A DNA stretch of 64,000 bases from Geobacter sp. DSM 9736. Lineage in GTDB: Bacteria > Desulfobacterota > Desulfuromonadia > Geobacterales > Geobacteraceae. The notes under the pieces are model-generated. The model was not told the origin of the DNA. It ran no database searches and worked only from the letters and a program-made list of their open reading frames with translations. Positions 10,715 through 43,545 of this stretch are shown here, piece by piece (position 1 is the first letter of the stretch; each line of letters opens with the position of its first letter). Position numbers and translations under genes: made by a program. The stretch is taken from the NCBI RefSeq assembly GCF_900187405.1, contig NZ_LT896716.1:1488001-1552000 (forward strand), given 5' to 3'.

Positions 10715-10733
10715 TGTCAACTCCCTTTAAACG

Positions 10734-24796: not shown

Positions 24797-27700
24797 CTAT
24801 TGATTTGCATGGCAGCTGAAGCACCTGAGCGAGGCGCCCCAGGTGATGTTGGGCTGGTTGACGTGGCATGCGGTCAAACATGTCTTCGTCGCCGGATCCC
24901 AGGTGGAAGTCCCGAGATTCATGCTGTCGTACGAACCGGCGTTCTTGTACGAGCCGTTGCGGGACCAGCCAAGTGCATTGGCCACATTGGAAAGCTGCGC
25001 CTTGGTCTTGAAGGTCAGCGACGGGAAGGCGACATCCTTCTTACCGTTGATGTGGCGGGCGGTATCGGTGATCAGGCCTGGCTGCAGCGGCGTTCTTGTA
25101 CTTGCATTGTGGCAGTTGCTGCAGCTGTACCTGCTGCCGGTGCCGTGCATTGCGTAGGTGTCGATCTGTGTGGAGCTCACGACGCCGCTGTGGCAGATAT
25201 AGCAGCCGATTGTGGTGGCGACGGCAGGATTCCCGTGGGCCTTGTCGCCACCGGACGAATAGCCGAGGAAGCCGTTCGCTCCATCACCCTTGTAGACGTT
25301 ATCGAAATGAATACCGACCATGTGGCCTGCATCCATGTATGGCGGGCGGCCGTCGTCTCCCAGGCTGCTGGCGGCGACATAGTGCGACTGGCCTGCATAC
25401 TGTGGCGGATTGTCGTGGCACATCCCGCAGCGGTTTGCAGGCGCAGGGCCGTACCAGTTCGGGGACGCTTTAAAATCGCCAGCGGTAAGCGCCGTGGACT
25501 TCCCGTTGCTGTGACAATAAGAGAGTGCGCAGCTTACGTTGGAACCGGAGGTTCCGGTAATTCCGCTGCTGGCGATGTTGATGCCGTCGGCACTTGCAAG
25601 ATTGAGAGAGTTCAGGTAGCTGCCGCCGCTCTTGCCGCGGTTGATGGAGAGATCGACGGTACCGTTGCGGTGCTTTGCTGAATCGGTCGGGTGGCAGTTG
25701 GCACAACCGATGCGGATTCCCTGGCCGCTGGAGCGGATGGCTGTGAAGTTGTAGAAGGTGACGGCGTCGGAGCTGATGAGGTTGCCGATGTGCTTGGAGT
25801 GTGCTGCCGAGAGATTTCCGTGGCACACTTTGCAACCGGCGGAAGAAGCGTCACCCCACACGGCGCTGGACCCGGAATGACACGAAATGTTGTTACAGGT
25901 TCTCGACAGCTGGTTCCATGTGGCCGTTGCCTTGGCAGAATTGAAATTGACGTCGATGTTCCGGTCGAGATGCAGGCTTCCGGGTTTGATGGCGGTACCT
26001 GCCGCAGTAACCGTGGCATTGTGACATGTGTCGCATGTCGAAGCTCCTGCGGTAGTGTGGCTCCTGTGACTGTTGGAGCGCAGTACATTGCCGCCGGCGC
26101 TGGCATAGTTCGGCTCTCCGGCGACACCGGCGAAGGCGGGAGCCGGATCGTTGCCATGACAGCCTATGCAGTTCGTGTAGGTGACTGCTGAATTCCACCC
26201 ATTGGCGGCAGTGAAGGCGACGTTCTGCTGTCCCTTGCCGTCGGTGTGGCAATAGCTTGCGGAGCACCCTCCTGCGGCCGGCGCATGACTGCCCGCCCTG
26301 GTCCCGGAGTAGTTGATAAAGCCGTTGCCGTGCAGATCGCGGCTAGAGAAGGTTCGCTCATCTGAGTTGATGGTTTTGGCGTGACACTCGGAACAGTTGA
26401 AATTTCCGCCGAGATCGGGATTGTTCACGTGGGCTGTATGCTTGCCGGACGAAATCACCCCGGAGCTGGAAGCGTTGTTGCCGTGACAACCGGTACAGTC
26501 GGCGGATACGGAAGCACCCCAGGTCTGTGTATATGAACCGACTCCGCCGTGGCAGCTGATGTTGCTGCAGGTTTTGTCGGCTGCCCAGGTAAACGTCTTA
26601 CCGCCACCGGCGACGACATCAATGGAGCGGTTAAGAATATGGGTGGCGCTGTCCTGAATAATAGCACCTTCCCCGGTAACCGTCGTGCCGTGGCAATAGA
26701 CGCAGCTGGCCGCACCGCTGTCTACGTGGTTCCTGTGGCTGTTGGCGCGTGCAGTGCCCGACCCGGTGCTTGCGTAGTTCGGTTCCCCAGCGTTGCTCAC
26801 GAAATCAGCGGCAGTACTGTTGCCGTGACACCCCTTACAGTCGAGGGTTGCTGCTGATTTCCAGCCGTTGCCGGCATCGAAGGGAACATTCTGTTGCCCC
26901 TTGCCGTCAGAGTGGCAGTAGGATGCAGAGCACACGCCCGTGGCAAGTGTGTAGCTGTTCCTGCTGCCAGCCAAGCCTCCCGTGTAATTCTTGAACCCAT
27001 TTCCGTGGACCGACGTGTCGTAGATCGAACGGTCGTCGGGGTTTGAGGTAAGGGCGTGGCAGACGTTGCAGCTGTAATTGCTGCCGAGGACAGATTTATT
27101 GTTGATGTGGACTGCGTGTTTTCCGCTGGCCATAGGATTGGCGCTGGCAATATTATTGCCGTGACAGCCGGTACAGTCGGACGGGAATGACTGTCCCCAC
27201 TGGGCAGGGCTCGAGCCTGTGCCGTGGCAGTTGATGTTGGAGCAGGTCTTGTCGGCACCCCAGGTGAACGTCTTGCCACCGCCGGGAGCTACCTCGATAA
27301 GCCGGTTGGTATGCAGGTCGCCGCTGATGAGGGTTCCGGCGGGGTTAACCACATTGCTGTGGCAGTATACGCAGGTCCCGGCGCCTACCCCACCCATGTG
27401 CCGCTGGTGGCTGTTGGCCCTGGGTTGTCCCGCACCGGCATTGGGATAGTTCGGCTCACCGGCGACGCTGGTGTTATGGCCGAAGACGGGATCGTTGCCG
27501 TGACATCCCTTGCACCCCATGGTGGCGGACGAGTTCCAGCCGTTGGCCGCAGTGAAAGCAACATTCTGCCGGCCTTTCCCGTCGGTATGACAATAGCTTG
27601 CGCTGCACCCTCCGGCAGCGGCGGCGTAGCTGCCTGCCCTGGTGCCCGAATAGTTGAAGAAGCCGTTGCCGTGGAGAGAGCGGTCGGCAAAGGTGCGTTC

Positions 27701-30700
27701 ATCCGCATTTATCGTCTTGGCATGGCACTCGGCGCAGTTGTAGTTCACACCGAGGCCGGGGTTGTTGATATGGGCGGCATGCTTGCCCGATGCGATCGGC
27801 GCGGAACTCGCAGCGTTGTTGCCATGGCAGCCGGTACAATCGGCGGAGACGGGAGCACCCCAGACCTGGTCGTACGACCCTTTCCCACCGTGACAGCTGA
27901 TGTTGGAGCAAGTCTTGCCGGCAGCATAGGTGAAGGTCTTCCCGCCACCGGCAACAACGTCGATGCTGCGGTTGAGGATATGGGTGGTGCTTTCGGAGAT
28001 GATGCCGCCTGCTCCGGTAACAGTCGTGCCATGGCAGTAGACGCATGTTGCGACACCATCGTCGACGTGATTCCTATGGCTGTTTGCGCGGGGGGTGCCT
28101 GCGCCGGTGCTTGCATAGTTCGGCTCCCCGGCGACGCTCACGAAATCGGAACCGCTACTGTTGCCATGGCACCCTTTACAGTCCAGAGCAGCGGCGGATT
28201 TCCAGCCGTTAGCGGCATCAAACGGCACGTTCTGCGTTCCTTTGCCGTCGGAGTGGCAGTAGGCGGCGGAGCAAACGCCGGTGGCGGTGGTGTAGCTTCC
28301 GCGACCGCCGGCTAGCCTGCCGGTGTAATTCTTGAAGCCGTTGCCATGAAATGCTGGATCGGCGATTGTCCTGTCGTCACTGACCGTAAGGGCATGGCAG
28401 ACGACACAGGCATAATTCGTCCCGAGAACAGCTGCGTTATTCATGTGGGCGGCATGTTTGCCGGTGGTCTGGGGAGTGGCACTGGTCAGGTTCCCGCCAT
28501 GGCAGCCGGTACAGTCGACTGGAAGTGTTGCCCCCCACTTGATGGGTGCCGGACCGCCATGACAGCTGATGTTGGAACAGGTCTTGGTAGCGAGTTCGTA
28601 ATCGAACGTCTTGCCGCCGCCGGCGCGTACCTCCCGGATGCTGTTGGTGTGAGTGGAACTTCCAGCAATGATGGTGCCTGCGGAGGTCACGGTCGAACTG
28701 TGGCAATAGACGCAGGTCTCTGAACCTACCCCGCCCATATGGCGCTGATGGTTGTTGGCTTTCAGCGTATCGGCGCCGGTATTGGCATAGTTGGGTTCGC
28801 CGGCGGCCGAAGCGAACGTGGGAGCACTATCGGCGCCGTGGCAGCCGATGCAGTTGGTAAGCGCGGGGCCGGAGGTCCAGCTGACGGCGATACCGGGGGT
28901 TCCTTTTCCGTCACTGTGACAGTAGGCATTGTTGCAGGCTGCGCGATCCCTTCCCGCCTTTGCGCCGGAATAATCCCTCAGCTTGTTTACATGAAGTGCC
29001 GTGGAACTGATCGTTTCGTTGCCGCTGACGGTGTTTGCGTGGCACTCTGCACACCCGTAGTTACTTCCGATCCTGGCGTTGTCCACATGCTGGCGATGCG
29101 CGCCTGTTACGACCGGTGTCCCGCTGGCAGCATCACCACCGTGGCACCCCAGACAGGAAAGGGTACCGCCCCAGGTGGCACTTTTGGTCGTACCATTTCC
29201 GTCACTGTGACAGTAGTTTGCGGAGCAGGAACCGTAGCCGTTGGCAGGGGGGTTGACTTCCTGGTCATAACTGCCGCCGTAGGAGGCCGGCATCGCAACT
29301 TCTATGTTCTGATTCCCGTGCTTGGCCGGGAGGTCAGATCCGGAATTCGTGTGGCAGTCAGCGCAGTCGTAGGCGTAGGTCGAGATATGCTTGCCATGGT
29401 TGCCGGAATCTATGGGAGCTGCATCGCTCTTCTTGCCGCCATGACACCCGTCACAATTGAGAAGGCCTCCTCCCCACCGGACAGTGCTGTAAACGGTCGC
29501 CCCCCCAGTCCCATTCGCGCCGCTCTGCACGTTGCTGTGGCAATATACGTTGGAGCAGTCTCCGTATGCTTCAGTGGTTGCAAGGGTAGTCGTTGAATGG
29601 ATATTGAAGCCCCGATAGGTGGCCGCGGGTGATAGAGCGGAGAGGTTCCACTTGACGTGGCCGTTCACCATGTGAGGGTTCGGGTAGTCATCATGGCACT
29701 TTGTGCAGGAATACTCCAGGTTGCCTACATGCTTGCCGTGGGCGCCGGTGGCTACCGACGGTGTTGGCGGATTGGCAGGGGTGGTTCCGTGGCAGACGGC
29801 GTTGCTGCAATCCCCGAGGGGGCCGTTGGTCCATGAGATAGGCTCAACAGGGGCCCTTCCGGAGGGAATGGCCCAGTTGTCGCCGTGACAGTATACGCTG
29901 CAGGTAACCACCTCGTGCTTTTCTGCGACAGGCGGCTGTTTTATGAGGCTAGTTCCAGGGTTTCCTGGCGCCAGAACAACATCATTGTTGAAGTCAGGGT
30001 ATGGCGTGACAGTTATTGTTCCTCCGGAAATGACCCCCGTGAAGGGTGGCCAGGTGCTGCTGTAGATCTTGAAGCCGAATTCGATGACATCGTTTCCGAG
30101 AAGGCCGTGCCCGTAGTTGTTGTGACAGGAGGCGCAGGCCATCCGCAGATCCCCGCGGTGCTGACGGTGCGCTCCAGCATCAGCGGGAGGATAGCTACCG
30201 TAGATATTTGACGACAATTCGGCCGGGGTGAGAGGCGGGTCACCATGACAGTCGGTACAGGACCCGGCCTTCGGCGGACGGAATCCGAGCTTGTGGGAGT
30301 GGCACTTCATGCAGTCCCTGCGATTGCTCTTGTGTTCCGCATGAGTGCTGCTCGAAAGCTTGGATGCGCTGTAGTTATGGTAGATGGTCCTGTGGTGGCA
30401 GACTTCGCAGACGTTGCGCGAACCTTGACGATAGACGGTGCGCTCGTCGTTGCCGAAGACACCGGTGACGTCGTTGCGGGACGATGTGATCCTGTCGAAT
30501 ATGACGGGCCTGCTTCCTATGGAGGTGGGAATGGAAGGGCTGACCTTCTTGATGTTGGGCGTAGGTCCTTTGCTGTGGCAGGTTGCGCAGGTATAGGATG
30601 CCCCCCAGGTGCCGTATTTTCCGGAGGCGGTATTCTCACTGTTATGCATGAGCGGACTGGCGGCCTCACTGCTCACGGAGCCGAGGGTTACCAGCAACAC

Positions 30701-30799
30701 CGTCAGGCATAGTGCCCTGATAAGGAAGGTCACGTCCGTGATGGCCGATCGGGCACTGCCGGAATGACCGGCACCGGGTCCCGCTTTCAGGTGTGTCAT
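24797..30799 (-). CDS. Giant multiheme c-type cytochrome, about 50 hemes
   Basis: The start at 30799 is set by GGGGGAGAA five nt upstream; the open frame reaches 31006 but that part holds a terminator hairpin and no ribosome binding site. The 2000-aa product has a signal peptide (IRALCLTVLLVTLGSVSSEA). I count 34 CxxCH, 14 CxxxxCH and 2 CxxxCH motifs (CSVYCH, CLTACH). The centre is built from highly similar modules; markers such as HILNRSIDVVAGGGKTFT recur with a period of 1341 bp (447 residues). The C-terminal 300 residues are shared with the 1256- and 1425-aa neighbours. It is the first gene of the four-cytochrome run and has a long leader with a candidate RpoN promoter and a terminator-like hairpin. 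Confidence 0.93.
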   Translation of the reverse strand: MTHLKAGPGAGHSGSARSAITDVTFLIRALCLTVLLVTLGSVSSEAASPLMHNSENTASGKYGTWGASYTCATCHSKGPTPNIKKVSPSIPTSIGSRPVIFDRITSSRNDVTGVFGNDERTVYRQGSRNVCEVCHHRTIYHNYSASKLSSSTHAEHKSNRRDCMKCHSHKLGFRPPKAGSCTDCHGDPPLTPAELSSNIYGSYPPADAGAHRQHRGDLRMACASCHNNYGHGLLGNDVIEFGFKIYSSTWPPFTGVISGGTITVTPYPDFNNDVVLAPGNPGTSLIKQPPVAEKHEVVTCSVYCHGDNWAIPSGRAPVEPISWTNGPLGDCSNAVCHGTTPANPPTPSVATGAHGKHVGNLEYSCTKCHDDYPNPHMVNGHVKWNLSALSPAATYRGFNIHSTTTLATTEAYGDCSNVYCHSNVQSGANGTGGATVYSTVRWGGGLLNCDGCHGGKKSDAAPIDSGNHGKHISTYAYDCADCHTNSGSDLPAKHGNQNIEVAMPASYGGSYDQEVNPPANGYGSCSANYCHSDGNGTTKSATWGGTLSCLGCHGGDAASGTPVVTGAHRQHVDNARIGSNYGCAECHANTVSGNETISSTALHVNKLRDYSGAKAGRDRAACNNAYCHSDGKGTPGIAVSWTSGPALTNCIGCHGADSAPTFASAAGEPNYANTGADTLKANNHQRHMGGVGSETCVYCHSSTVTSAGTIIAGSSTHTNSIREVRAGGGKTFDYELATKTCSNISCHGGPAPIKWGATLPVDCTGCHGGNLTSATPQTTGKHAAHMNNAAVLGTNYACVVCHALTVSDDRTIADPAFHGNGFKNYTGRLAGGRGSYTTATGVCSAAYCHSDGKGTQNVPFDAANGWKSAAALDCKGCHGNSSGSDFVSVAGEPNYASTGAGTPRANSHRNHVDDGVATCVYCHGTTVTGAGGIISESTTHILNRSIDVVAGGGKTFTYAAGKTCSNISCHGGKGSYDQVWGAPVSADCTGCHGNNAASSAPIASGKHAAHINNPGLGVNYNCAECHAKTINADERTFADRSLHGNGFFNYSGTRAGSYAAAAGGCSASYCHTDGKGRQNVAFTAANGWNSSATMGCKGCHGNDPVFGHNTSVAGEPNYPNAGAGQPRANSHQRHMGGVGAGTCVYCHSNVVNPAGTLISGDLHTNRLIEVAPGGGKTFTWGADKTCSNINCHGTGSSPAQWGQSFPSDCTGCHGNNIASANPMASGKHAVHINNKSVLGSNYSCNVCHALTSNPDDRSIYDTSVHGNGFKNYTGGLAGSRNSYTLATGVCSASYCHSDGKGQQNVPFDAGNGWKSAATLDCKGCHGNSTAADFVSNAGEPNYASTGSGTARANSHRNHVDSGAASCVYCHGTTVTGEGAIIQDSATHILNRSIDVVAGGGKTFTWAADKTCSNISCHGGVGSYTQTWGASVSADCTGCHGNNASSSGVISSGKHTAHVNNPDLGGNFNCSECHAKTINSDERTFSSRDLHGNGFINYSGTRAGSHAPAAGGCSASYCHTDGKGQQNVAFTAANGWNSAVTYTNCIGCHGNDPAPAFAGVAGEPNYASAGGNVLRSNSHRSHTTAGASTCDTCHNATVTAAGTAIKPGSLHLDRNIDVNFNSAKATATWNQLSRTCNNISCHSGSSAVWGDASSAGCKVCHGNLSAAHSKHIGNLISSDAVTFYNFTAIRSSGQGIRIGCANCHPTDSAKHRNGTVDLSINRGKSGGSYLNSLNLASADGINIASSGITGTSGSNVSCALSYCHSNGKSTALTAGDFKASPNWYGPAPANRCGMCHDNPPQYAGQSHYVAASSLGDDGRPPYMDAGHMVGIHFDNVYKGDGANGFLGYSSGGDKAHGNPAVATTIGCYICHSGVVSSTQIDTYAMHGTGSRYSCSNCHNASTRTPLQPGLITDTARHINGKKDVAFPSLTFKTKAQLSNVANALGWSRNGSYKNAGSYDSMNLGTSTWDPATKTCLTACHVNQPNITWGASLRCFSCHANQ
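26627..29300. repeat. About 1.34-kb internal super-repeat in the 50-heme cytochrome gene
   Basis: The marker gcggtt(g/a)(a)gatatgggtgg occurs at 26627 and 27968 (1341 bp apart). A second marker (gttggt near 27305 and 28643) repeats at about 1338 bp. The period is about 447 codons and carries about a dozen heme motifs. The right boundary is approximate. Confidence 0.65.
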
Positions 30800-30918
30800 A
30801 CTGTTTCTCCCCCTGCACATGAATCGGAAATGCACACAGGCCACCTGCCCCCTCTGCCTGAAGGAGAAAAGCGGCCGGACCGTTGAGACATGAAACTGCG
30901 CGCGCCTCGACGATCTAT

Positions 30919-30953
30919 TAAAAAACCTGAACCGTCCGACAGGACGGAACAGG
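30919..30953 (-). terminator. Terminator-like hairpin inside the cytochrome leader (possible attenuator)
   Basis: CCTG-TT-CCGTCC pairs with GGACGG-TT-CAGG and is followed on the minus strand by six T. It sits 120 nt before the start codon of the 50-heme cytochrome and just downstream of a candidate RpoN promoter. This suggests attenuation, or protection from read-through. Confidence 0.6.
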
Positions 30954-30976
30954 GTATACTCGGGCTGCGATTTACT

Positions 30977-30993
30977 AGCATCATCGGTGCCAG
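30977..30993 (-). promoter_or_regulatory. Candidate RpoN (sigma-54) promoter of the four-cytochrome run
   Basis: The minus strand reads CTGGCACCGATGATGCT: a perfect TGGCAC -24 element and a TGC -12 element with GG-N10-GC spacing. It differs from consensus at two positions. Transcription would begin near 30965. Confidence 0.5.
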
Positions 30994-31192
30994 AGCGCCC
31001 TTCCACTAGTAGCGGCAGATCATTATTTTTCTCAAATACAACTAGCCAGGATGTGTATTACGCAATTCATGGTTAACCTCTTGTAACTTCTGCACATGCA
31101 AATAAAATAAGACAATAGGTTAATTAACTAAAAACAATGTTTCCCGCTAACGCTAAGGACTTATTCATGCCCTGGACAGGTATTGATAAAGC

Positions 31193-31219: not shown

Positions 31220-31263
31220 TTTTATATCAGCGTATTGACGTGCCTGGGAACGACCAGAGAAAC

Positions 31264-31293
31264 GAAAGGCATCGACTGAACATTCGATGCCTT
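31264..31293 (-). terminator. Terminator-like hairpin of HPC peptide gene 2
   Basis: A perfect 10-bp stem AAGGCATCGA/TCGATGCCTT is followed on the minus strand by TCGTTTCTCT, 13 bp past the peptide stop codon. The T-tract is imperfect. Confidence 0.65.
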
Positions 31294-31305
31294 CCAGGTG
31301 TCGGA

Positions 31306-31365
31306 TCAGCAGGGATGTAAGGAGGTACTCTCCGTGACCTTCGGCCTGCTGTATTTCCTCTTCAT
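31306..31365 (-). CDS. HPC micropeptide 2, 19 codons (candidate RiPP-type precursor)
   Basis: The product is MKRKYSRPKVTESTSLHPC followed by TGA. The start has GGGAGGGGGGG four nt upstream. The stop is followed after 13 bp by a 10-bp terminator-like stem. It starts 65 bp behind the stop of the 4019-aa secreted protein gene, so it may be cotranscribed with the 36-heme cytochrome and that protein. It matches micropeptide 1 at residues M1, K2, K4, Y5, P8, K9, V10, H17, P18 and C19, with the same length and stop codon. Two such genes 24 kb apart, each behind a cytochrome unit, make chance unlikely. No signal peptide is present. The function is unknown. Confidence 0.72.
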   Translation of the reverse strand: MKRKYSRPKVTESTSLHPC

Positions 31366-31430
31366 CCGGCCCCCCCTCCCTAAAATTCCAGCTTTCGGAG
31401 CTGACGAAATGCTGCTCTTTACATGGAACG

Positions 31431-34400
31431 CTATGGTACCGCGCATACCCCGTTTACTAGTATCTTTCCCGTGTCGCAGGGGCACGTGCTCTTGTCTCCA
31501 CCAGTGAATGAAGGCGTTGTGGATATGGTTCCCCCTCCCGGATAGGTGTATGTGACCGCGGCCTCGTTGCCGGGGGGGGATATCTCTGCCCCCCGGAACG
31601 CCCTCACCCTGTAAACATACTTCTTCAGGGGCTCGATGGCGATGGTATCGATGAACTTCATCAGGTTGTGCTCACCCTGGATTCCGGAAATCTTTTTCAG
31701 AGGCACCCATCGACCATTCCATATCTTCGTCTCGACGATGAAGCCCTCCTCGTTGTTCGATTCATCGTACCAATTCAGCTGAACCTTGAACGGATTGAGG
31801 GCGGTGGCAGTCAGGTTCCCTGCCCGTTCCGAATAGGTCACGGGGAACTTCGGCTGCCCCGTTCCGGGATCCGCCATGATGCTCGTGTAGTCCGAGATGA
31901 TCCCATGTTCGGCATTGCAGTATTCGGTAGCGCGCCATCCTGCGACATGATAGGCGTACGTTGTCTCGGGAATCAGCCCGGTGCTGCTGTAGGATGTCAC
32001 GTTCGGGATAGTCACCGGATCGCCGCACTCCTGCTGCGTGCAAGCATCAGCTGGATTCACGCAGATGCATTTCTTAAGCACGAAGGCGGTCTGGTCCTTC
32101 CGTGCGTTCGCCTGCCAGGCAAGGTCTGCCTGAACATCGGAAACAGGGGTAGCCAGCAGGTTTACAGGCGGCTCGAAATGCGGTGTCATCTCCCCCCTCG
32201 GGTCGCTTGCCGGCCCCTGCCATTCCCCCTGCTTTACCGCGGAGACGCGATAGTTGTACCAGGTATCGGGGCAGAGCCTGTTATCGGTAAATGTCACCAG
32301 GGAGGGGTCGTCGCTGCTGTTGTAGATGCTGAAGTTCTTGATCAGGATGTCGGCCCAACTGGGTCCGAACTCGAGCATGGCCTGTCCGGCCGTCTTGACC
32401 GCAGGAACGCTGTTGATGTCGGCGACCTTTCTGTCATCTACATAGATCCTGAAGTTGCTCCCGCTCTTGACTCCGCGGATACGGTACCATGTGCCGACGG
32501 TAAAGGGAGTCCCACCATCGGCATCGACCCCTATGTTGACCCCCTTGTTGCCGGGATCGTAACGCCAGAAGATGCGGTTTCCTCCTGATAACCATATACC
32601 GGGGCTGCGGTCACTGCCTCCGGCATTGAACCCGAATATCTTGTAAGTGCAGGTGCTGCAAACCGTAGAGCGGAATTTGATATCGAATTCGATTGTATGG
32701 GTATCCGTATTGAGGATGTCGGTCGTCTGGCTCTGGAGGTTGTAAACGGAGTTCCTCACCAGGGCCCCGTCCTCGTAGGTGGGGGTATAGTTGTGCAGCG
32801 ACGAGAGGCTGAGGCCGCTGCCGGAAGAATCGTTCAGGTTGCCGTTGAAGGGGAATCGGGCCTTGAGCTTCGAATCGATAAGCCGTGACGGAGAGACATT
32901 GGAATATTCGAGCACGTAGTTCTCACAATTACTGTTCGTACAGCGCTCGATATTGAATCCCGTTTCGTTGCTCGTCGTCCTGTTCCAGAGAAGCTGCAGC
33001 GACGTCGCCGTCGAAGGCAGGACAGTGACCGTGGGTGCTATCTGGGTAGTGGTAGCGTAGGCAGTGTTGCTTGCCGGGCTTTCCCAGGGACAGCCCGGTA
33101 CCGACTTGTAAGCGGCTATTTTATATCTGTAGGTTTGCCCGACGGATAGACCGGTGTCGCGATAGGTAACGCCCGACACCTGTTTGTATGGTGTAGTCCC
33201 GAAAGTACACTCGCTGCCGCTATCCATGCAGCGGTATATATTGAAGCCGGTCTTGTCGGTGAAGAGATCGTTCCAACCGAGGTCGATGGAGGACTCGGAG
33301 AATCTCGTTGCGGTCAGGAGAACAGGGGGACTCGGCACAAGCTGGATGGCATCAAACCAGGCAGTCTGGGTTCCCGCCGTAGTTGTGGAAACTCCGCATT
33401 CCAGATTGAGCTGCGAAATGCTGCCCCCCCCGGGTGCGGTCAGCGGAAGGTCGATCTCCTGGGAGAACCCTATCCACCCCTGGTTGTTTTTGGATGCGTC
33501 TGAAGCCAATATCTGAAACTGGGTCGTATCGCTCCCCCAGTTCACGCTCGTCGCCCAGTTGGCGAGGCCGCACCAGGCCCTTCCGCCGCCGGCGAGCGCT
33601 GCCTTCATGTAACCGGTCAGTATGTACTTTCCTCCCGGCTTCAGATTGCTCAGAGACTGGTATATGTTACGCGAGGTATTGGCCGCCAGGTTCTTTGACT
33701 GTTTCAGGCTCGCCCTGCCGCTTACATAGACAGCTGCGTCGGAGGAGAGGCCTGTCGAGTCGGGCCAACCGGTCCAACCGGTCCAAGTACTCTCGAAATC
33801 GGAGTTTGCCACGAGGTTTCCCGGAACAGGCGTTACAACGGTTGCCGACGCCGATGGGCCCGCAGCCCCAGTGCCGGTCCTGGCACCGATCGCTACGGCG
33901 GGGAGCGCTGCGGCATAACGGGCGGCTATTTCAGCATTTGTCAGAGCCCTCGAATAGAAGCGGACTTCGTCGAAGATCCCCTTGAGAGGATTCCAGTTCC
34001 CCGTGTTGTTGCCTCTCCCCCCCATGTAGAAATGGCCGTTGTTCACCACGATCTTCGGCTTGGAGGATACGGTAACGGAACCGTATTCGACACCGTTTAC
34101 GAATAGCGAAATGTTCCCGGTGGACGAATCGTACCTGCCCACCAGATGGTACCACTGTCCCGGAGTCAACCGGGGCCCGGTACTTGTCTGGTAGTAAGGG
34201 GCTGTCGTTGTTACCGGTGGCGAATCGACCGAACCGATACCGAAATATACCCGCTGTTGAGGATTGGTCGGGGTAGCATCCGTGGAGTTATCAAGCCAGA
34301 TGCCGAACATCTCCCACGGCTGTCCCCCATCAGTGGTGGTCTTGGAGACCAGCCGTGCCCAGTCGGGGCTCTTCTGGTACTGATACCACAGCTCGATGGA

Positions 34401-37400
34401 AACCTGATCCGTCACATCGAAAACGGAACCTGTGGTATCGGCGACATAAGCGCCGTCATTGACACCATCGGTTTTCAAACCGTTGCCGAACCGACCCGTG
34501 GAGACAATGCCATTGCCCGACCCGAAACCGTAGAGAGTGGCATTCTTCCCGCTGCCGCTCCTGTCTGCAGTGGAGCCGCTCAAGGTCCCGGCGTTCTCTT
34601 CAAAAGGCCAGTACCCTGAGAGACCTGTCCCGAAGACGGCGTCCTTGTTGCTGGCACTGGTAGCGGAAGGGTTCCCGTAATAGAGGTCTACGTTGGAGCC
34701 GCCACCAGTCCTGAACCAGACTATTGCCGTGGCGCTGCTCCCCGTGCCGGTCGTGGACTGAATCCAGTACGGGAGTTCGACGCCGTTGTCACGGTCAAGG
34801 AAACGGATGTCACGGAAATCATCCTGCATATCTTTGTCGGCCCCTTTTGTGATGCGGACCTGGGTAAGGAAATTTGGCTGGAAATCGGTGATCACAAGGG
34901 AAGACTTGCTCCTCCACACCTGTCCTCCGGAGTTCCCGAAGGGCATGGATGGGTGCTCCACGGGCGCCAGGAGATAGGCATAGGTCGTGCCGGAGCAGGC
35001 GGAAACGTCGCTGTAGGAGACGGCTCCGGCATTTGTCGTAGCAACGTCTACATAAGCGGTGGAGCACGCGGGAGCACCGACCGGGAGACTGGGGCAGCGC
35101 TTGATGGCGAAACCGGATTCGGCAATGGTGGTATCGTTCCATGCCAGGTCTACCTGGGTGGTGTTCGAAGCCGTAGCGGAAAAGGATGCGGGAGGATTGA
35201 CCGTCGCCGTTGCATGGTCGGGGCCGTTGGGAGGGGGGGCCGAATTGGGAAGGCTGGGTGCGCTGGTAATGGTGCCGCACCCGCCTGTCGTGTACGACTT
35301 GATCATGTACCGGTATGTAGTGCCTGGCACGAGGAAGTAGTTGTCGTTGTACGTAACGGTACCGCCGGTGCCCCCCAGCGGTGCGACGCTAACGGGCAGT
35401 TTTGCGAAGGTGGTGCAGTCGGCCGCTCCGGAGCAGCGCCAGACCTCGAATCCGGCCTCATCCGGAGTCGTATCTTTCCATGTAACCTGGATCTGCTGTT
35501 CCGAGATGCGCGTCGCTACTACATTCAGCGGAGCAGTCGGCAGCCCGGTGGAAACCGTTTCGCCCGTAACGACCGTAGGGCCGAGCACCCATGAGGTGCC
35601 GTCGGGATTGTTTTTGTAGGCGCTTATCCGGTAGCGGTAGATGCCGGAACAGAGGTTCGTGTCGGAGTAGCCGGCAGTGGTAGAAAGGGCGTTATCGTTG
35701 GGCGGAACCAGTATGACCGCCGTAACCCCGGTATCGTCAAGACTGCAGGCAGTGCTTTCATCAGGATCCTTGCACCGCTCCACTTTAAACCCTGTTTCTC
35801 CTACGGTATTGTCGGTCCAGGACAGTGCTACCTGGGAGGTGCCTGGCACAGCCGTGAAAGCCGCCGGTGCGGCCTGTTGCGTGGTCGTGAGGCACACGGT
35901 GTCGCTGTAGCCCGTCCCACCCTCCGGCCAGGATGGATTCAGTGCTTTCACCCTGTAGCAGTACCTTACCGGAGTCGCAGGCGAATCGAGCTGAAGATCC
36001 CTGTCCACGTAGCTCACCGACTGACCGACACCGGGATTGGGCGCAATGCTCGCCGGCAAGAGGGTGAAACTGCCGCAGGGTTCACCCGTACACCTTTCGA
36101 TGGCGAAGCCGGTCTCCGTGGAAGTGGTATCTGTCCAGGTGATGGTATTCCTGTCTGTGGCCAGTGACGTGGTATCCGCCACGATATCCAACTGGTACCC
36201 GGATAGCGCTGGGTTCCCGGTGGGATAGGTAACGGTAACCGGTCTGCGGAAGCGCCATGATCCGGGTTCACCCGAAAGCGTGTAGGGTGCTCCGGCTGGT
36301 TCTATTTCACCGAGCGCGGCGGCAGGAGACATGGCGGCATGCTTTCTGACCCGCAGCCATTCCCACTCGGCCGAGTAAGTCTGGTTGTTATAGCTGTCGC
36401 TGTCGTAACGACGGCCGAGCACGATCGGCCGCGCGTTGATGCCCGTCCCGGTTTTAGTGAGGTCCAAGGGGCCCCAGTAGGTGATGCTGCGATTCTGCTC
36501 GATGTCGTTTACGAGCATTCCGGCAGTAGTTGTGCTTTTCAAAACCACGTCGAAGATCATGGCGTCGGTCAGTGCTGTGCCCGCAGGGGGCGTTGTCGTA
36601 TCGGCCATCCTGGTATACGCGTTGTTGTTTGAATAATGCAGCGAACCCGGTGCAATGAGCCACCCGGTATTCTCGTACCAGTAGTTCAATACTCCGAGGG
36701 GAACGAAGCCGTTGGTGGGAAGCAATGCTGTCTTGACCCGTGCCTGAAGCCTGTACCCGGGGCCGAAGGAGGATTTAGAGGTAAGCCTGCCTGTGGTATT
36801 GGTGCCGCGAAGCTTGCTTCCCGCCACGCTGAAGCCGGTCCCGTCGGTAACCGTCCATTTGCCCTGGTCTATGGAGCTGTTATCGAAGTCGTCGAAGAAG
36901 TCGAAGATGTTTGAGCCTGTTGTCGCCGAAGAGGAAGCCATCAGGTTACCGTAGTAGAGTTTGAGGTTTTTGCCACCGGCCGGGATGTCGAGTTTTACGG
37001 TAAACTTGGTGGCGGTCCTGTTGCACTGTGAGAGAGTGTCGTCCTTGCCGGCTATGTAGTAATTGAGTTTCGTGCTCCCATCGCTGTCTACTATGCGGAC
37101 ATCCTCGCAGGCGGTCGTGATGCGGGAAAAGGTTTTTGCGGGGTCTGTCGACGCAGCGGGTGCCGTCAAATCGGTAGTGGCGCTCAGGATTCCGCTGGAC
37201 GCCGTCTCCCAGAAACCCTTGCCACCGTTGCACGCAGCGTTTTCCGCTCGGTATGCCCTCACCCGGTACCAGTAGGTAGTATTGAAGGCAAGTCCACTGT
37301 CGGTATACTTCCATGTCCCGGCGGTGGCGGTGGCGACATCCGCATTGGCGGCAGTAAGAGTGACGAACGACGCACACTCGGCATCGGTGCAGCGATCGAC

Positions 37401-40400
37401 CTTGAATCCCTCCTGATCCTTACCGGTGGGGAATGTCCAGGCGACCTCTATCTCTGCCTCCGACCGCCTTGATACGGAGGTGAGGGCTGGGGCTGCCGGT
37501 AGAGCCGCCGTTGTCACCTGCGTCGGTGCCGGCTGGGCAGCTCCCGCGGCAGGCTTGCTCCAGAGGCCGTCCCAGGTGAAATCGAAAGCGAATCCGGCAT
37601 CGTTGCTGTCGGCAGGAGCGGGCGTCCCGAGAGTGGCTACAGGCTCCACCTGTGCATATCTTCGTGCAAAGACCCAGTCGACGCTGATCTTTCCGTTGCC
37701 CCCTCCGCCGTCCCCTTCCGAGAAATGGATCGCTGTGGGGGTCCCGGTATAGGCCGTCGAGTAGATCTGGGTGCCATCCTCCTTGTGAATACTCCAGGTA
37801 TTGGCAGTGCCTCCCAGATGGTCGGCTCTTACTCTGACATACTGGTCGGCGGGCACCTGTTTCGTGGTGCCGCTCGCATTATAGGCCTGAAGGTAATTTC
37901 CACCGACATCGAAAATACCTGTATCGGTGCCGATGCCCGAGGTAAGCATGCGATTGCGGATGAGGCCCTGCCCCAGGTACGCCGAAGTGTTGTTGATGCG
38001 CGCTTCCACCCGGTAGGGGGGCGTCATCGCCTTAGAAATGGTGAGGTAGCTGGTCTTGGCCGGATTGGCGGTACTGTCGAGAGTCACAACTCCACCGGAC
38101 ACTACTGCCGTAGCTGCCCCGTTAATCGACACACTCCACTGGCCGAGGCTGGATCCGTTGAAATCATCGAAGAAGTCGAAAACGGATGAACCGGAACCAT
38201 TGGGCGCAGCAGCACTTGAATTGCCGTAATAGAGATAGATGGAATCCCCGATACTGGGCATTTTGAACCATATCGTTGCGGAACCTGAAGCCCCCGGCGA
38301 CATGCTTTCCACCCAGTATGGGACCTCCACCTTCAACGTCTCGTTATACAGACGGATGTCGGAAAAATCGGTGTTCATTCCCGTTTGGTACGGTACCACC
38401 AGCTTCGTCTGATGGTTCGCCAACGGATTGGCAACGCTGACCGGAATCCTTCGCGTCCAGCGGCCGTCACCGTCCATCGAAAGCCCTTCATTCACGGCTT
38501 TCACCCAGTAGTTGTAGGTCGTGCCGTTGCAGGCCGTAGTGTCGGCATAGGCGGTTGAGTTGAAGATTAACGAGCGGGGAAATCCCGGATCGAGTGGGGT
38601 CATGTTGCACGTGCTTCCCGTGCACCGGACGACCTGGAACTCTGTTTCAGTGAGAGTCGGGTCAGTCCAGGAGAGGCTCACATGGGTGGTACCCGGCGCC
38701 GAGGCGGTCAACACCGGAGAAGAGGTGGTCGTCGAGGCGAAGGCTGTATTGGAAAAGGCTCCGTCCCATCCGGGCGTACCGCTGCAAACCTGCGAAAATG
38801 TTTTATAGGGGCGTATCCTGTAGCGGAACGTGGTTCCAGGAGCAAGGCCGCCGTCACGGTACGACGTGACATTCGCGCCGACAGTCGTCACCTGGACAAA
38901 ATTCCCGCAAGGGGTATTCCCCTCGGAATCGGCGCACCTCTCGATTTTGTACCCGGTCTCATCGAATGCACTGTCCACCCATGCGATATCGATACGCGCT
39001 TCAGATACGCGGGTCGCTGTGAGGTCATACACAGGGCTCAGTTGCAGGTCGTCCAGGTATCCCTGGGCGCCTGCAAGAGCGAAGCACCGGAGACGGGATC
39101 CGGTAACGGGAACGCTGGTGGTGACGGCGAGGCTCTGGGTCACCTCTTCCCACCCTGTGGTCGTACCGGAATTGGCGATGGAAAAACTGGAGCCGTCCAG
39201 CGAATCGCACTTAACCTTCCCTGCAGCAGCTGCGGATTTCATCCAGGCAGAGAGACGGTACTTTCCACCCGGCGCAAACAGAACGTACTGCTTTATCCCA
39301 GACTGGGATGCCGTTCCTACTGCATCGATGCCAAGGCTCCTGGCGCCGCCATGGTAAACGGCAGGGTCAAAGGTTATGTCCGTGGCCACCGAACCTCCGA
39401 CGTAGGTCCAACCTATACCCTGGCCTGCAGCGAAAGGGTCCGGCGCCTCGAATCCCGGATCGCCCACGATATTGTCCACCGTCGGCGGGACGGCACCGAC
39501 AGTCTCCGAAAAGAGTGAAGTCCACCCGGGGCCGGTCGTGCGCACCTTGTAACGGTAGGTAGATCCGGGGCAGACAGACTCATCATCGTAAACCGCAGCC
39601 GTGCCGGAAACCGCCTGGAGCAGCGTAAAATCGGAACAGGCGGCGGATGGAGAGGAATCCATGCAACGCCAGATTTCGAACCCGGTGTGGCCGGTAGCTG
39701 CGGGAGTCCATACCAAGGTTACCTTTGCAGTTCCCGAAGCCGCAGCAGTGACCGGGGTCGGAGCAGGCGGAGTAGCTGTCACGACTGTTGTCCGGACCCA
39801 CGGCGAGAGCACGCCGCCGTTGTCATGGCGTATCGAGTAACAGTACGCAGTCTGCTGGCGAAGCACCGGGTCGGTATCGGCGTAGCTGGTGACAGAACCG
39901 GCCTGATCCGGAAGCGCGGTCGGTAAATTCACATTGTTCTCGCACGCTCCCTCCTGCCGCTGGAGGTGGTAAATCCCACCTTTCGTTACGGCAACGGGGG
40001 GCCAGGACAGGGTGACCGAGGCATAGCCGGGAACAGCTTCCAACGGATACGGGCCTACGACGGCGTCCCCTGCAATTTTTACTACGACATAATCGGCATT
40101 CGAAAGACCGTTACGGGTAATTCCGGCGACGAAAGCTTCTCCCAGGTAGTTGGTCGTCACGTCGTAAGACTTGTCTTCTCGGCCGACCGTCTTGAACATC
40201 GTGCCGTCACCGAGTAGGGTCCCGGATCGATCGATCTTGACGGTGAGGATTTCGGTATCGCTCCCGCCGCTCGTGGTTGTGCCGGTAACAAAGACGCTTC
40301 CGGAGCCGTCGATGGCCATTTCGATCATGTCATCGTCGGAGGTGTTGCGAAGTACCGGCCTCGCCCAGACCATCGAACCGGCCGGCGAATATCTCACCAC

Positions 40401-43400
40401 ATGGAAATCGTTGTTGCCCGGATCGGTCAACCTGTTGCCGCCGACAACTACCTCGCCGTTGCCCGGGTCCACCTTGACGGTAACCGCCTCGTCGTCTCCT
40501 CCGGCCGGACCGTCATACGGAAGATCCCACTGTTTCACGCCGGAAGCGTCATATTTGACAGTTATGTAGTCCCAGTTCCCGTCGGCGTTTGTCCTGTAGC
40601 CGGTTACGTAGATGTTTCCAGCTTCGTCTGCCGCCACGTCGTTGGCCTGATCGTCCCGGTTTAGCAGGCCCCCGATTCCACCATCTTCACGGCCGTCGTA
40701 CATAGCCTCCCAGATAAGATCCCCCGGGTTTTTTCCCTGGGGGCAGCCCGATGAGATGCTTCCGCAGAACTTGGCAGTGTAGATGTCGTAGTCGCTGCGG
40801 GTGCCCGTGCGTTTCATGAACCCGGTGATGATCACGTTTCCTGCCGGATCGAAGGTCACAGCGGTCGGCTCGTCGTTTTCTCCCTTGTCTATGGGTAGCG
40901 CGGTCCAGAATCCCGCCGCCGCAGGACCGCCTGCCGGATAATGGATCAGGTAAATGTCGTGACCGAGAGAGAAATTGGTACTGGAATGCATGCCGAATCC
41001 GACCACCGCTACGGCGCCGGACAGGCTGGTGGCTGAAGCGATGGAGACTGGACGGTCGTCGGTTGCGCCGGGACCATTGTACTGGTGGGACCATTCATCG
41101 ATAAGGTCGGGGTCTATCTCAGGCTCTGGCGCAGCGTCGGCCTTGTACTTGATGGTATAGATGGAGTTCATGTACTTGCCGGCTGCAGCATTATTCATGT
41201 AGGCATAGCCGGAGACGATGATCTGGTTGTTCCTGTCCACCGCCAGACACATTGCCGCATCTTCCTGGCTCTGTGAATCATCGTATCGCTGACTCCAAAG
41301 TTTGTTTCTCAGGTCCTCCCGGCTAAGCTTCAGGGTGTAGTAATCGACTCCGCCCGGGTCGAAGAAACTCTTGCCGGTCACTACGGGATTGCCGTCCGGC
41401 CCCGTTGCCACCGAAAGAGCATAATCATCATTTTCCGCGATGCCGGCGTACGTGAATACTTCGGAGGCACCGGGCGTACGCAGGTTCAGGTACTGCGTGA
41501 CCGCATGTGCGGTATTGCTGGGGTGGGTTTCTCCGTTGGCATCGTAAGCCTTCACACGGTAATAGTAGTAACGGCCGGGTATCAGTCCTCCGTCGGTCTT
41601 GGTCGTGACGTTCCCCACATCCAGAACCAGAGTTTTGTCCGGGTTGTCGAAATCGCACCCGGTCAGGTGGTCCGCCCCCTCTGTACACCGCTCCACCCGA
41701 AACGAAGGAGCAGTTGCGTTATTGTCCTGCCAGGTCAGCGATATTTCCGTGTTGGATGCAGGGGTAGCGCTGAGAAGGGTAGGAGCGTTGAGTGCTCCTT
41801 TCGCGTAGGTGACCACATGGAAATCCAGGTCGTCGTTGTCATAGATGTAGTAACCGTCGCCGGCAGCTATATCGAAGTCGAAGGGGTAGGCGACGGTAAG
41901 GCTCGTCGCATCGTTACCGAGGATGGGGCGGAACGATCCCTCGTTGGCTCCGCTCGTCATCATCACGTAATAGTTGGTCCACCTGTTGACGGACCACATT
42001 CTAGTGCCGTCAACGACTCTCTTCTCCGCTTTGGCCGTCCCGGCCGAAACAGCGGAAAGCCCCTCCAGCGGGGTCGTTTCGTCGGCATATCCCGTGACAT
42101 AAAATCGCTCCGGGTTAACGGGGTCCGAAGCGACGCCCACTGCCCTGTCGTCACGGGCGGCCGTGCCGCTGAAAGTGCGCGTCCACAGCTGCGCACCGTT
42201 GCTCTTGCGGTACTTTATTATCCGGAAGTCGGAGTTGGCGGAAGCATCTTCGGTGTACCCGACCACGAACAGAGCATCGCTTTCGTCGACCGCCATGGCA
42301 GTCGGGATGTCCGTGTTGTCATCCCCGGAGCTGAAAAGAACCCCGCCCCCCTCCCATGCTGTCTGGGGATTCGAAGGAGCCGAGCGGTAGCGAACGGTAT
42401 GGGCATGAAAGCGGCCGGTATCGCTACGATAGGTGCGGCCGGTGACGAAGACGTCATCCGTAGTGGAATCTATCGCCAATGCTGCGGGTTCGTCTTCCGA
42501 ACCGCCGTCGAAGGTATGGGACCAGAGAATATCGCCGGGGTTCTTCCCCGTGCACGGAGGGAGGGAGCTTGCGCAGTATTTCACCGTATGCATGTCCTGG
42601 TCGGCACCGTTGGCCACAGATCCGGCGACAACTGCATGCCCCAGCGAATCGAGTTTTATGAAGAGGCCGGAGTCATCGCGCTGGAATTCTCCCGGAGCCT
42701 GGACCGACGTCTGCCACAGCACAGCCTGTCCTGCTGCATCGTACATCACCGTTTTCAGATGAAGGTCGTTTCCGCTCCAGGTCTGCCCCGTCACCGCGAC
42801 CCCACCCGTACCTGCCGCCAGCGACGATACTTTGCCCACCGTGACCGTTCCAGCGTTCGGTATCTGCCATGACAGAGTCCCGTTCTTGCCGTATTTGAGG
42901 ACGAGGAAGCTTTCGGACCCGTTGTACCGGCTGGAACCCCCAACGAAGAGAGAGTCCCCATGAACGGCAATTGAAGAGGCCGAATCCATGATGCCCCCGT
43001 CGAATATCTTCGTCCAGGCGGCTACGGCATCCTGTGTGTTCTGCACCGCGTCATACCGGATGGTGACGACGTCGGTGTTGTTGGCTCCTACCGTCGTTCC
43101 GGTGACGTAGACATTGTTTTCGCTGTCGAGGGCGAGCGCCACGGCGCGTGCCTTGAACCCGGATCTTGCATAGGTCCCGCGCCACGCGATGGTCCCGTCG
43201 GGGCGCACCTTGATAGTGTAGAACTCCTCGTCACTCCCCCCGGGAGAAAGGTGAAAGCCCGTAACGATGACATTGCCTCCGGAATCGACGGCGGAGGCGG
43301 CCGGATGCTGCTTTCCGGCCTTTCGGTCGCGTACCTTCCAGACCTCGTCCCCCCCGTTGAGAGCGGCCGCCGGAAGTGCCCCGGCAAGGATCAGCGCCGC

Positions 43401-43490
43401 CGCAAGAAGCAGGTACAAAACCGACTTCCAATCCCGGTATCCACACTTCCTGATGCTGCCGACTATGGTAGCAGGGGTTATTCCCGTCAT
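31431..43490 (-). CDS. Giant secreted beta-propeller/FN3/DUF2341/LamG protein, 4019 aa
   Basis: The start ATG at 43490 follows GGTGGAG and gives a standard signal peptide (VLYLLLAAALILAGALPAAA); an in-frame ATG at 43535 with GGAG is also possible. Approximate order, in residues from 43535: SBBP-type beta-propeller (50-560), FN3, second propeller (700-1170), FN3s, a jelly-roll carbohydrate-binding-like domain (1355-1490), DUF2341 (about 1705), FN3s, second DUF2341 (2145-2400), FN3s, third DUF2341 plus LamG (2880-3210), a second jelly roll, a second LamG-like domain (3550-3735), more FN3s and a short Cys-containing tail. Many FN3s carry the motif (F/Y)x(V/I)(E/W)RC. It is probably a surface or extracellular adhesin/scaffold. 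It starts within 60 bp of the 36-heme cytochrome stop, implying one operon. Confidence 0.88.
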   Translation of the reverse strand: MTGITPATIVGSIRKCGYRDWKSVLYLLLAAALILAGALPAAALNGGDEVWKVRDRKAGKQHPAASAVDSGGNVIVTGFHLSPGGSDEEFYTIKVRPDGTIAWRGTYARSGFKARAVALALDSENNVYVTGTTVGANNTDVVTIRYDAVQNTQDAVAAWTKIFDGGIMDSASSIAVHGDSLFVGGSSRYNGSESFLVLKYGKNGTLSWQIPNAGTVTVGKVSSLAAGTGGVAVTGQTWSGNDLHLKTVMYDAAGQAVLWQTSVQAPGEFQRDDSGLFIKLDSLGHAVVAGSVANGADQDMHTVKYCASSLPPCTGKNPGDILWSHTFDGGSEDEPAALAIDSTTDDVFVTGRTYRSDTGRFHAHTVRYRSAPSNPQTAWEGGGVLFSSGDDNTDIPTAMAVDESDALFVVGYTEDASANSDFRIIKYRKSNGAQLWTRTFSGTAARDDRAVGVASDPVNPERFYVTGYADETTPLEGLSAVSAGTAKAEKRVVDGTRMWSVNRWTNYYVMMTSGANEGSFRPILGNDATSLTVAYPFDFDIAAGDGYYIYDNDDLDFHVVTYAKGALNAPTLLSATPASNTEISLTWQDNNATAPSFRVERCTEGADHLTGCDFDNPDKTLVLDVGNVTTKTDGGLIPGRYYYYRVKAYDANGETHPSNTAHAVTQYLNLRTPGASEVFTYAGIAENDDYALSVATGPDGNPVVTGKSFFDPGGVDYYTLKLSREDLRNKLWSQRYDDSQSQEDAAMCLAVDRNNQIIVSGYAYMNNAAAGKYMNSIYTIKYKADAAPEPEIDPDLIDEWSHQYNGPGATDDRPVSIASATSLSGAVAVVGFGMHSSTNFSLGHDIYLIHYPAGGPAAAGFWTALPIDKGENDEPTAVTFDPAGNVIITGFMKRTGTRSDYDIYTAKFCGSISSGCPQGKNPGDLIWEAMYDGREDGGIGGLLNRDDQANDVAADEAGNIYVTGYRTNADGNWDYITVKYDASGVKQWDLPYDGPAGGDDEAVTVKVDPGNGEVVVGGNRLTDPGNNDFHVVRYSPAGSMVWARPVLRNTSDDDMIEMAIDGSGSVFVTGTTTSGGSDTEILTVKIDRSGTLLGDGTMFKTVGREDKSYDVTTNYLGEAFVAGITRNGLSNADYVVVKIAGDAVVGPYPLEAVPGYASVTLSWPPVAVTKGGIYHLQRQEGACENNVNLPTALPDQAGSVTSYADTDPVLRQQTAYCYSIRHDNGGVLSPWVRTTVVTATPPAPTPVTAAASGTAKVTLVWTPAATGHTGFEIWRCMDSSPSAACSDFTLLQAVSGTAAVYDDESVCPGSTYRYKVRTTGPGWTSLFSETVGAVPPTVDNIVGDPGFEAPDPFAAGQGIGWTYVGGSVATDITFDPAVYHGGARSLGIDAVGTASQSGIKQYVLFAPGGKYRLSAWMKSAAAAGKVKCDSLDGSSFSIANSGTTTGWEEVTQSLAVTTSVPVTGSRLRCFALAGAQGYLDDLQLSPVYDLTATRVSEARIDIAWVDSAFDETGYKIERCADSEGNTPCGNFVQVTTVGANVTSYRDGGLAPGTTFRYRIRPYKTFSQVCSGTPGWDGAFSNTAFASTTTSSPVLTASAPGTTHVSLSWTDPTLTETEFQVVRCTGSTCNMTPLDPGFPRSLIFNSTAYADTTACNGTTYNYWVKAVNEGLSMDGDGRWTRRIPVSVANPLANHQTKLVVPYQTGMNTDFSDIRLYNETLKVEVPYWVESMSPGASGSATIWFKMPSIGDSIYLYYGNSSAAAPNGSGSSVFDFFDDFNGSSLGQWSVSINGAATAVVSGGVVTLDSTANPAKTSYLTISKAMTPPYRVEARINNTSAYLGQGLIRNRMLTSGIGTDTGIFDVGGNYLQAYNASGTTKQVPADQYVRVRADHLGGTANTWSIHKEDGTQIYSTAYTGTPTAIHFSEGDGGGGNGKISVDWVFARRYAQVEPVATLGTPAPADSNDAGFAFDFTWDGLWSKPAAGAAQPAPTQVTTAALPAAPALTSVSRRSEAEIEVAWTFPTGKDQEGFKVDRCTDAECASFVTLTAANADVATATAGTWKYTDSGLAFNTTYWYRVRAYRAENAACNGGKGFWETASSGILSATTDLTAPAASTDPAKTFSRITTACEDVRIVDSDGSTKLNYYIAGKDDTLSQCNRTATKFTVKLDIPAGGKNLKLYYGNLMASSSATTGSNIFDFFDDFDNSSIDQGKWTVTDGTGFSVAGSKLRGTNTTGRLTSKSSFGPGYRLQARVKTALLPTNGFVPLGVLNYWYENTGWLIAPGSLHYSNNNAYTRMADTTTPPAGTALTDAMIFDVVLKSTTTAGMLVNDIEQNRSITYWGPLDLTKTGTGINARPIVLGRRYDSDSYNNQTYSAEWEWLRVRKHAAMSPAAALGEIEPAGAPYTLSGEPGSWRFRRPVTVTYPTGNPALSGYQLDIVADTTSLATDRNTITWTDTTSTETGFAIERCTGEPCGSFTLLPASIAPNPGVGQSVSYVDRDLQLDSPATPVRYCYRVKALNPSWPEGGTGYSDTVCLTTTQQAAPAAFTAVPGTSQVALSWTDNTVGETGFKVERCKDPDESTACSLDDTGVTAVILVPPNDNALSTTAGYSDTNLCSGIYRYRISAYKNNPDGTSWVLGPTVVTGETVSTGLPTAPLNVVATRISEQQIQVTWKDTTPDEAGFEVWRCSGAADCTTFAKLPVSVAPLGGTGGTVTYNDNYFLVPGTTYRYMIKSYTTGGCGTITSAPSLPNSAPPPNGPDHATATVNPPASFSATASNTTQVDLAWNDTTIAESGFAIKRCPSLPVGAPACSTAYVDVATTNAGAVSYSDVSACSGTTYAYLLAPVEHPSMPFGNSGGQVWRSKSSLVITDFQPNFLTQVRITKGADKDMQDDFRDIRFLDRDNGVELPYWIQSTTGTGSSATAIVWFRTGGGSNVDLYYGNPSATSASNKDAVFGTGLSGYWPFEENAGTLSGSTADRSGSGKNATLYGFGSGNGIVSTGRFGNGLKTDGVNDGAYVADTTGSVFDVTDQVSIELWYQYQKSPDWARLVSKTTTDGGQPWEMFGIWLDNSTDATPTNPQQRVYFGIGSVDSPPVTTTAPYYQTSTGPRLTPGQWYHLVGRYDSSTGNISLFVNGVEYGSVTVSSKPKIVVNNGHFYMGGRGNNTGNWNPLKGIFDEVRFYSRALTNAEIAARYAAALPAVAIGARTGTGAAGPSASATVVTPVPGNLVANSDFESTWTGWTGWPDSTGLSSDAAVYVSGRASLKQSKNLAANTSRNIYQSLSNLKPGGKYILTGYMKAALAGGGRAWCGLANWATSVNWGSDTTQFQILASDASKNNQGWIGFSQEIDLPLTAPGGGSISQLNLECGVSTTTAGTQTAWFDAIQLVPSPPVLLTATRFSESSIDLGWNDLFTDKTGFNIYRCMDSGSECTFGTTPYKQVSGVTYRDTGLSVGQTYRYKIAAYKSVPGCPWESPASNTAYATTTQIAPTVTVLPSTATSLQLLWNRTTSNETGFNIERCTNSNCENYVLEYSNVSPSRLIDSKLKARFPFNGNLNDSSGSGLSLSSLHNYTPTYEDGALVRNSVYNLQSQTTDILNTDTHTIEFDIKFRSTVCSTCTYKIFGFNAGGSDRSPGIWLSGGNRIFWRYDPGNKGVNIGVDADGGTPFTVGTWYRIRGVKSGSNFRIYVDDRKVADINSVPAVKTAGQAMLEFGPSWADILIKNFSIYNSSDDPSLVTFTDNRLCPDTWYNYRVSAVKQGEWQGPASDPRGEMTPHFEPPVNLLATPVSDVQADLAWQANARKDQTAFVLKKCICVNPADACTQQECGDPVTIPNVTSYSSTGLIPETTYAYHVAGWRATEYCNAEHGIISDYTSIMADPGTGQPKFPVTYSERAGNLTATALNPFKVQLNWYDESNNEEGFIVETKIWNGRWVPLKKISGIQGEHNLMKFIDTIAIEPLKKYVYRVRAFRGAEISPPGNEAAVTYTYPGGGTISTTPSFTGGDKSTCPCDTGKILVNGVCAVP

Positions 43491-43545
43491 TTTCTCGCTC
43501 CACCTCTCATATTTTCCATCTGGAAACCGGAACATATCGAAGCTC

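Follow-up and report, generated by a model that had tools for sequence, protein, structure and literature searches.

HPC-ended micropeptides as candidate substrates of the GeoRSP radical SAM system, linked to exported cytochromes in Geobacter and its relatives

Two micropeptide genes and their neighbours

The window, a stretch of 64,000 nucleotides spanning contig positions 1488001-1552000 of the 3.96-Mb genome of Geobacter sp. DSM 9736, contains two genes for a micropeptide ending in His-Pro-Cys (HPC). Copy 1 (31306..31365, minus strand; profile E 5.3e-9) encodes MKRKYSRPKVTESTSLHPC. The original prediction had placed an open reading frame (ORF) here and named no strand; the ORF is confirmed as real, lying at exactly this position on the minus strand and closing with a stop codon, and the plus strand of the same interval carries an in-frame stop. 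The strong ribosome-binding site and terminator-like stem claimed for copy 1 were also found: the purine-rich, Shine-Dalgarno-like GGGAGGGGGG (31371..31380, minus strand) lies immediately ahead of the ATG at 31365, and a stem-loop of 13 pairs with a T-rich tail follows on the 3′ side (31296..31263, minus strand). This is the sole such stem in its 600-bp stretch, against 0.4 ± 0.6 in shuffled sequence.

Copy 2 (7643..7702, minus strand), located by pattern and profile search, encodes MKKKYVTPKVVGAAVVHPC followed by a stop codon and repeats this anatomy of Shine-Dalgarno sequence, ORF and terminator-like stem, the last at 7590..7618 on the minus strand. Our count of identical residues between the copies, 10 of 19, agrees with the predicted one, and different synonymous codons are used at four of the nine identical non-Met residues.

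As predicted, copy 1 sits behind a giant protein gene on the same strand, separated from it by 65 nt. This gene (31431..43535, minus strand) encodes 4034 amino acids with fn3, DUF2341, Laminin_G_3 and SBBP beta-propeller domains and near-terminal cysteines. Another 10 nt upstream is a gene for a 1710-amino-acid cytochrome with 30 CxxCH motifs (43546..48678, minus strand), which comes first in an operon-like run of cytochrome, giant and peptide; the same order recurs at three further loci (L025, L072 and L080). Beyond the terminator of copy 1 lies a gene for a 2069-amino-acid cytochrome with 34 CxxCH motifs (24797..31006, minus strand), and directly upstream of copy 2 is one for a 944-amino-acid cytochrome with 16 CxxCH motifs and a GSu_C4xC__C2xCH match (7886..10720, minus strand). 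Elsewhere in the window, a formate dehydrogenase alpha gene (55127-58160, minus strand) has an in-frame TGA at RL*HSSTVAGL that looks like a selenocysteine site, and its reading frame appears to shift after about 90 codons.

Searching the genome with the pattern KYxxPKV...HPC and a terminal stop returned two matches, both of them the window copies, and none with a reversed-pattern control. The profile scan suggested alongside the original prediction recovered a large family and, using a broader profile that had both window copies among its input, exactly four full-length copies in this genome (E 1e-9 to 6e-9; next match 0.2), at 1495646 and 1519309 on the minus strand and 3192023 and 3502745 on the plus strand.

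A conserved family and its upstream partners

Relaxing the pattern revealed relatives in other genera of the same taxonomic family, and a profile built from ten of these gave matches across the class, with up to seven copies per genome and E values down to 6e-13. Carriers among the matches listed (GTDB genomes) include Desulfuromonadales/Geobacteraceae, Nitrospirota (Thermodesulfovibrionia), Deferrisomatales and deltaproteobacterial MAGs. In total, 157 distinct genes were read from loci, encoding peptides of 17-20 amino acids with the consensus M-[KR]-x(0-3)-Y-x-x-P-[KR]-[IV]-V-G-S-x-x-V-H-P-C-stop. The HPC peptide family is widespread and strongly conserved in Desulfuromonadia and Nitrospirota. 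Genes of 17-20 codons are short enough to be missed by routine annotation, and neither window peptide, padded to 28 amino acids, matched any NCBIfam model.

Y, P, H, P and C were imposed by the family search; G-8 and S-7 were left free, and at V-4 the sole requirement was a T in the second position of the codon. Position G-8 is nevertheless Gly in 151 of the 157 genes, spread over the codons GGT, GGC, GGG and GGA (53, 50, 35 and 13, respectively), Ser occupies S-7 in 127 and uses every one of its six codons, and V-4 is Val in 152. Because residues that the search did not fix are held while their codons vary freely, these data support purifying selection on the HPC peptide at the amino-acid level, in line with the original proposal of selection on the peptide as opposed to DNA duplication. 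A Shine-Dalgarno core is present in 153 of the 157 genes, a count that is not independent, as the gene finder required a Shine-Dalgarno-like stretch. No family member with another ending was found in 2.2 Mb of loci, most of which had been chosen by the pattern; when peptides were instead located by their position behind a GeoRSP radical SAM gene (see below) or by a looser motif free of HPC, all family-like ones ended in HPC and a stop.

Copy 1 is the most divergent member, its T-9, E-8 and L-4 each being unique among the 157. This alone is no mark of decay, since MKKYSKPRVTASGSIHPC, encoded directly behind a GeoRSP gene, drifts similarly. On four Nitrospirota contigs (L090, L158, L163 and L167), several peptides carry an extra Cys (SVCVHPC) and sit between CarboxypepD_reg-type exported proteins, in a stretch that, as read, is free of cytochromes.

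The upstream neighbour lies on the same strand in 122 of 138 peptide genes, mostly within about 150 bp. These 122 neighbours include 39 multihaem cytochromes (≥4 CxxCH), 20 CarboxypepD_reg-like proteins, 17 GeoRSP radical SAM enzymes and about 16 giants. Many of the cytochromes have a common C-terminal domain, CxKCHxPHxxxLPRLxxTNCLD...CH...WNxxTPW, which a profile places at 43549..44022 on the minus strand of the window (contig 1531549-1532022), within the 1710-amino-acid protein. In this tail domain, as read in the window and at L067, L107, L138 and L170, a CxxCH is followed by TNCLD, a lone CH lies tens of residues beyond and WNxxTPW forms the terminus. The separated Cys and Cys-His could form an unusual haem or ligand site. 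We found no family name for the domain, nor a C-terminal sorting tag common to all upstream proteins; instead, there are two separate tail types, the WNxxTPW of the cytochromes and the near-terminal Cys of the giants.

A peptide gene follows on the same strand, no more than 20 kb away, behind at least 54 of 99 cytochrome tails. This figure is a lower bound, with no listed peptide near the other 45, and is partly by construction, as cytochromes next to peptide genes were the input for the profile. The confinement of the tail to genomes with GeoRSP does not share this bias: of the 277 genomes, 83 gave a match to the profile and 77 of these carry GeoRSP (p 1e-48), with no match in 19 genomes of genus g6 that are rich in candidate cytochromes, which argues that the confinement is no artefact of the profile.

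Linkage and co-occurrence with GeoRSP

GeoRSP is defined by three NCBIfam models, for a PqqD protein (TIGR04302), a radical SAM/SPASM protein (TIGR04303) and a SPASM protein (TIGR04304). Coordinates alone place a peptide gene on the strand of the GeoRSP radical SAM gene, 30-209 bp downstream of it, at 33 of 51 Desulfuromonas-type loci; reading the DNA added 11 more, for a total of 44, and at about six loci no peptide was found behind this gene. At fully read loci of this type the peptide stands between the radical SAM and SPASM genes with the PqqD gene upstream, and the full order is beta-helix, beta-helix, PhnD-like, YedE, PqqD, radical SAM, peptide, SPASM and cysteine desulfurase-like.

In Geobacter- and Nitrospirota-type operons the order is beta-helix, CarboxypepD_reg, OpuAC-like, ResB-like, NicO/TPR/beta-helix (this last group sometimes as one fused ORF), PqqD, radical SAM and SPASM, with PhnD-like and YedE genes often present. 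The peptide heads several of these operons, including that of the home genome at 3.192 Mb. The GeoRSP enzymes of this genome lie at about 3.20 Mb, some 1.7 Mb away from the window. Genomes of the Geobacter type show no linkage between the enzymes and most peptide copies, those in the window included. Operons at L207, L208, L232, L242 and L248 contain ResB-like, NicO/DsbD-like, TPR, OpuAC-like, PhnD-like, YedE and NosD-type beta-helix genes, and NikR/CbiM lie near the operon in some genomes. This gene content hints at metal, sulfur or cytochrome-maturation chemistry.

Across the 277 genomes, 86 have both peptide and GeoRSP, 9 the peptide only, 2 the enzymes only and 180 neither (Fisher 2e-58); the genomes are related, so that this p value overstates their independence. 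The pattern is nonetheless seen in many families. Most of the nine peptide-only genomes are incomplete assemblies. Two genomes with GeoRSP, the single-contig G029 and G226, gave no convincing peptide by profile up to E 10, as did four genus g6 controls without GeoRSP; G029 (L233) and G226 (L211) keep tail-domain cytochromes together with the GeoRSP operon. Outside the class, GeoRSP is present in 16 of 18 pattern-bearing genomes, and the two exceptions are a match in Bacillota, which does not satisfy the family tests, and one in Phycisphaerae on a 3.9-kb MAG contig, the latter probably contamination. The Alteribacillus match to the pattern (L109) was rejected, as it did not pass the filter for start and Shine-Dalgarno and comes from a genome without GeoRSP, and a loose-pattern match in G037 without start context was a false positive.

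A proposed precursor peptide and its alternatives

To our knowledge, and as the absence of a matching NCBIfam peptide model suggests, GeoRSP appears to be an orphan system: models cover its three proteins and none matched the peptide, whose gene is inside or linked to the operon and co-occurs with it. The literature searched names neither GeoRSP nor its TIGR numbers, one unrelated use of the word aside; the survey of peptides targeted by radical SAM enzymes that Haft and Basu published in 2011 lay outside this coverage. The HPC peptide very probably fills the gap as the substrate. Viewed as a RiPP precursor of the radical SAM class, the family offers a short conserved gene with translation signals (157 genes), a position beside the modifying enzymes at 44 of 51 Desulfuromonas-type loci, with most Geobacter-type copies not adjacent, and a leader motif, YxxP[KR][IV], predicted to bind the recognition element (RRE). 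We identified neither a peptidase dedicated to the leader nor an exporter for the peptide.

The nearest PDB relatives of the GeoRSP PqqD are TbiB1, a PqqD family protein (9x8z) and a lasso PqqD chaperone (9x90). Lasso RREs bind leaders of the form [Y/W]xxPx[L/V/I/F/A] (PMC13381572), which YxxP[KR][IV] fits. Among PDB entries, the radical SAM enzyme is nearest to the peptide maturases PqqE and SkfB, and it matches the mycofactocin maturase model at E 1.4e-58.

On these grounds we consider it probable that the HPC peptide is a GeoRSP precursor, bound through its leader, modified in its core and made together with an exported giant protein for extracellular electron transfer. The N-terminal M-K-x-K-Y-x-x-P-[KR]-[IV]-V-G would be the leader bound by the PqqD-like RRE, which would present the peptide to the radical SAM/SPASM enzyme and to the partner SPASM protein, and the invariant C-terminal V-H-P-C would be the core that receives the modification. 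In the home genome, the enzymes would act in trans on dispersed copies. Since most copies close an operon-like run encoding a huge exported protein (a multihaem cytochrome and/or an fn3/beta-propeller giant), the modified peptide would be produced together with that protein and would presumably be exported itself; most likely the protein requires it in order to mature or to function. MftC carries out an oxidative decarboxylation at a C-terminal residue (PMC9062424), and by analogy a C-terminal reaction is thinkable on a peptide with a strictly terminal Cys; we make no prediction of the chemistry with any confidence.

The strongest competing explanation, which we regard as possible but clearly the less probable, is that GeoRSP makes a diffusible product, such as a metal-binding compound, redox cofactor or signal, and that the cytochrome linkage reflects co-regulation and gene dose. 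It would account for the transport-like genes of the operon (NicO, PhnD-like and OpuAC binding proteins, YedE) with NikR/CbiM nearby in some genomes, for an invariant HPC beside variable middle residues, as if only the last residues reached the product, and for the good score on the mycofactocin maturase model. However, the near-confinement of the tail domain to GeoRSP genomes, often with peptides directly behind, is more specific than co-regulation. It is unlikely that the peptide stays unmodified and regulates or inhibits GeoRSP by binding the RRE, the true substrate lying elsewhere: the observed YxxP motif, linkage and co-occurrence would fit such a role, whereas the invariant HPC end, the multiple copies and the in-operon position are typical of precursors. 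A leader peptide controlling the following gene by attenuation or translation, as a short ORF before a terminator might suggest, is very improbable and was rejected, because the regular partner is the upstream gene, the downstream gene is of mixed kinds and on the opposite strand in 39 of 143 cases, the peptide has no run of one codon kind and the co-occurrence with GeoRSP would be left unexplained. Finally, we give almost no credence to the reading that the ORF is fortuitous and belongs to a dispersed DNA repeat or copied cassette, rejected despite the several scattered copies per genome, since synonymous sites vary where amino acids are held and the flanks differ between copies.

The HPC peptide is therefore best read as a RiPP-type precursor that most likely serves extracellular electron-transfer assemblies, and it gives a named, apparently orphan radical SAM system a concrete, testable substrate. 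Because HPC peptides are linked with multihaem cytochromes, the data suggest that certain machines for electron export in bacteria require a post-translationally modified peptide; one that travels with the exported giant haem proteins of metal-breathing bacteria points to a new ribosomally made electron-transfer molecule. If true, this would add an ingredient to extracellular electron transfer and define a new family of RiPPs, whose many precursors are dispersed and are acted on by enzymes in trans. A bolder extension, which we regard as speculative and rather doubtful, is that the peptides are precursors of a new, ribosomally made prosthetic group or ligand: GeoRSP would modify the C-terminal HPC, and the product would be delivered to the TNCLD...lone CH...WNxxTPW domain of the giant extracellular cytochromes and to the Cys-ended giants as a working part of a class of extracellular electron conduits in Desulfuromonadia and Nitrospirota.

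Comparison with known systems sets the family apart. Precursors of lasso peptides and LPP (RREs TbiB1, LppB and PbaB1) share the YxxPx[LV] leader motif, and their RREs are the nearest solved structures to the GeoRSP PqqD, but the HPC core has only about seven residues, ending in HPC; a lasso peptide was rejected, as neither a B2 protease nor an asparagine-synthetase-like (C) cyclase is among those GeoRSP operon genes that are annotated, a part of the total. Mycofactocin (MftA/MftB/MftC) and PQQ (PqqA/PqqD/PqqE) likewise combine a very short precursor with invariant C-terminal residues, an RRE and a radical SAM/SPASM enzyme; the HPC family differs in its VHPC core, its many dispersed precursor copies per genome and its linkage to exported cytochromes, in place of nicotinoprotein or quinoprotein dehydrogenases. 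In PqqA, an internal Glu and Tyr are cross-linked to make PQQ, and identity with PqqA was rejected, the family having no conserved Glu and an HPC core. The core of MftA is a C-terminal Val-Tyr (PMC9062424), which excludes MftA for a peptide ending in V-H-P-C. The same genome also encodes a geopeptide maturase (TIGR04280), likewise a radical SAM maturase beside a small Cys-containing peptide; identity with the geopeptide was rejected for want of a sequence match or TIGR04280 adjacency, the neighbouring candidate small ORF having GIMGCCTVGFGRF at its end and being unrelated to HPC in sequence. This maturase gene (L030) lies apart from GeoRSP, at contig 3926399-3927679 (3.93 Mb).
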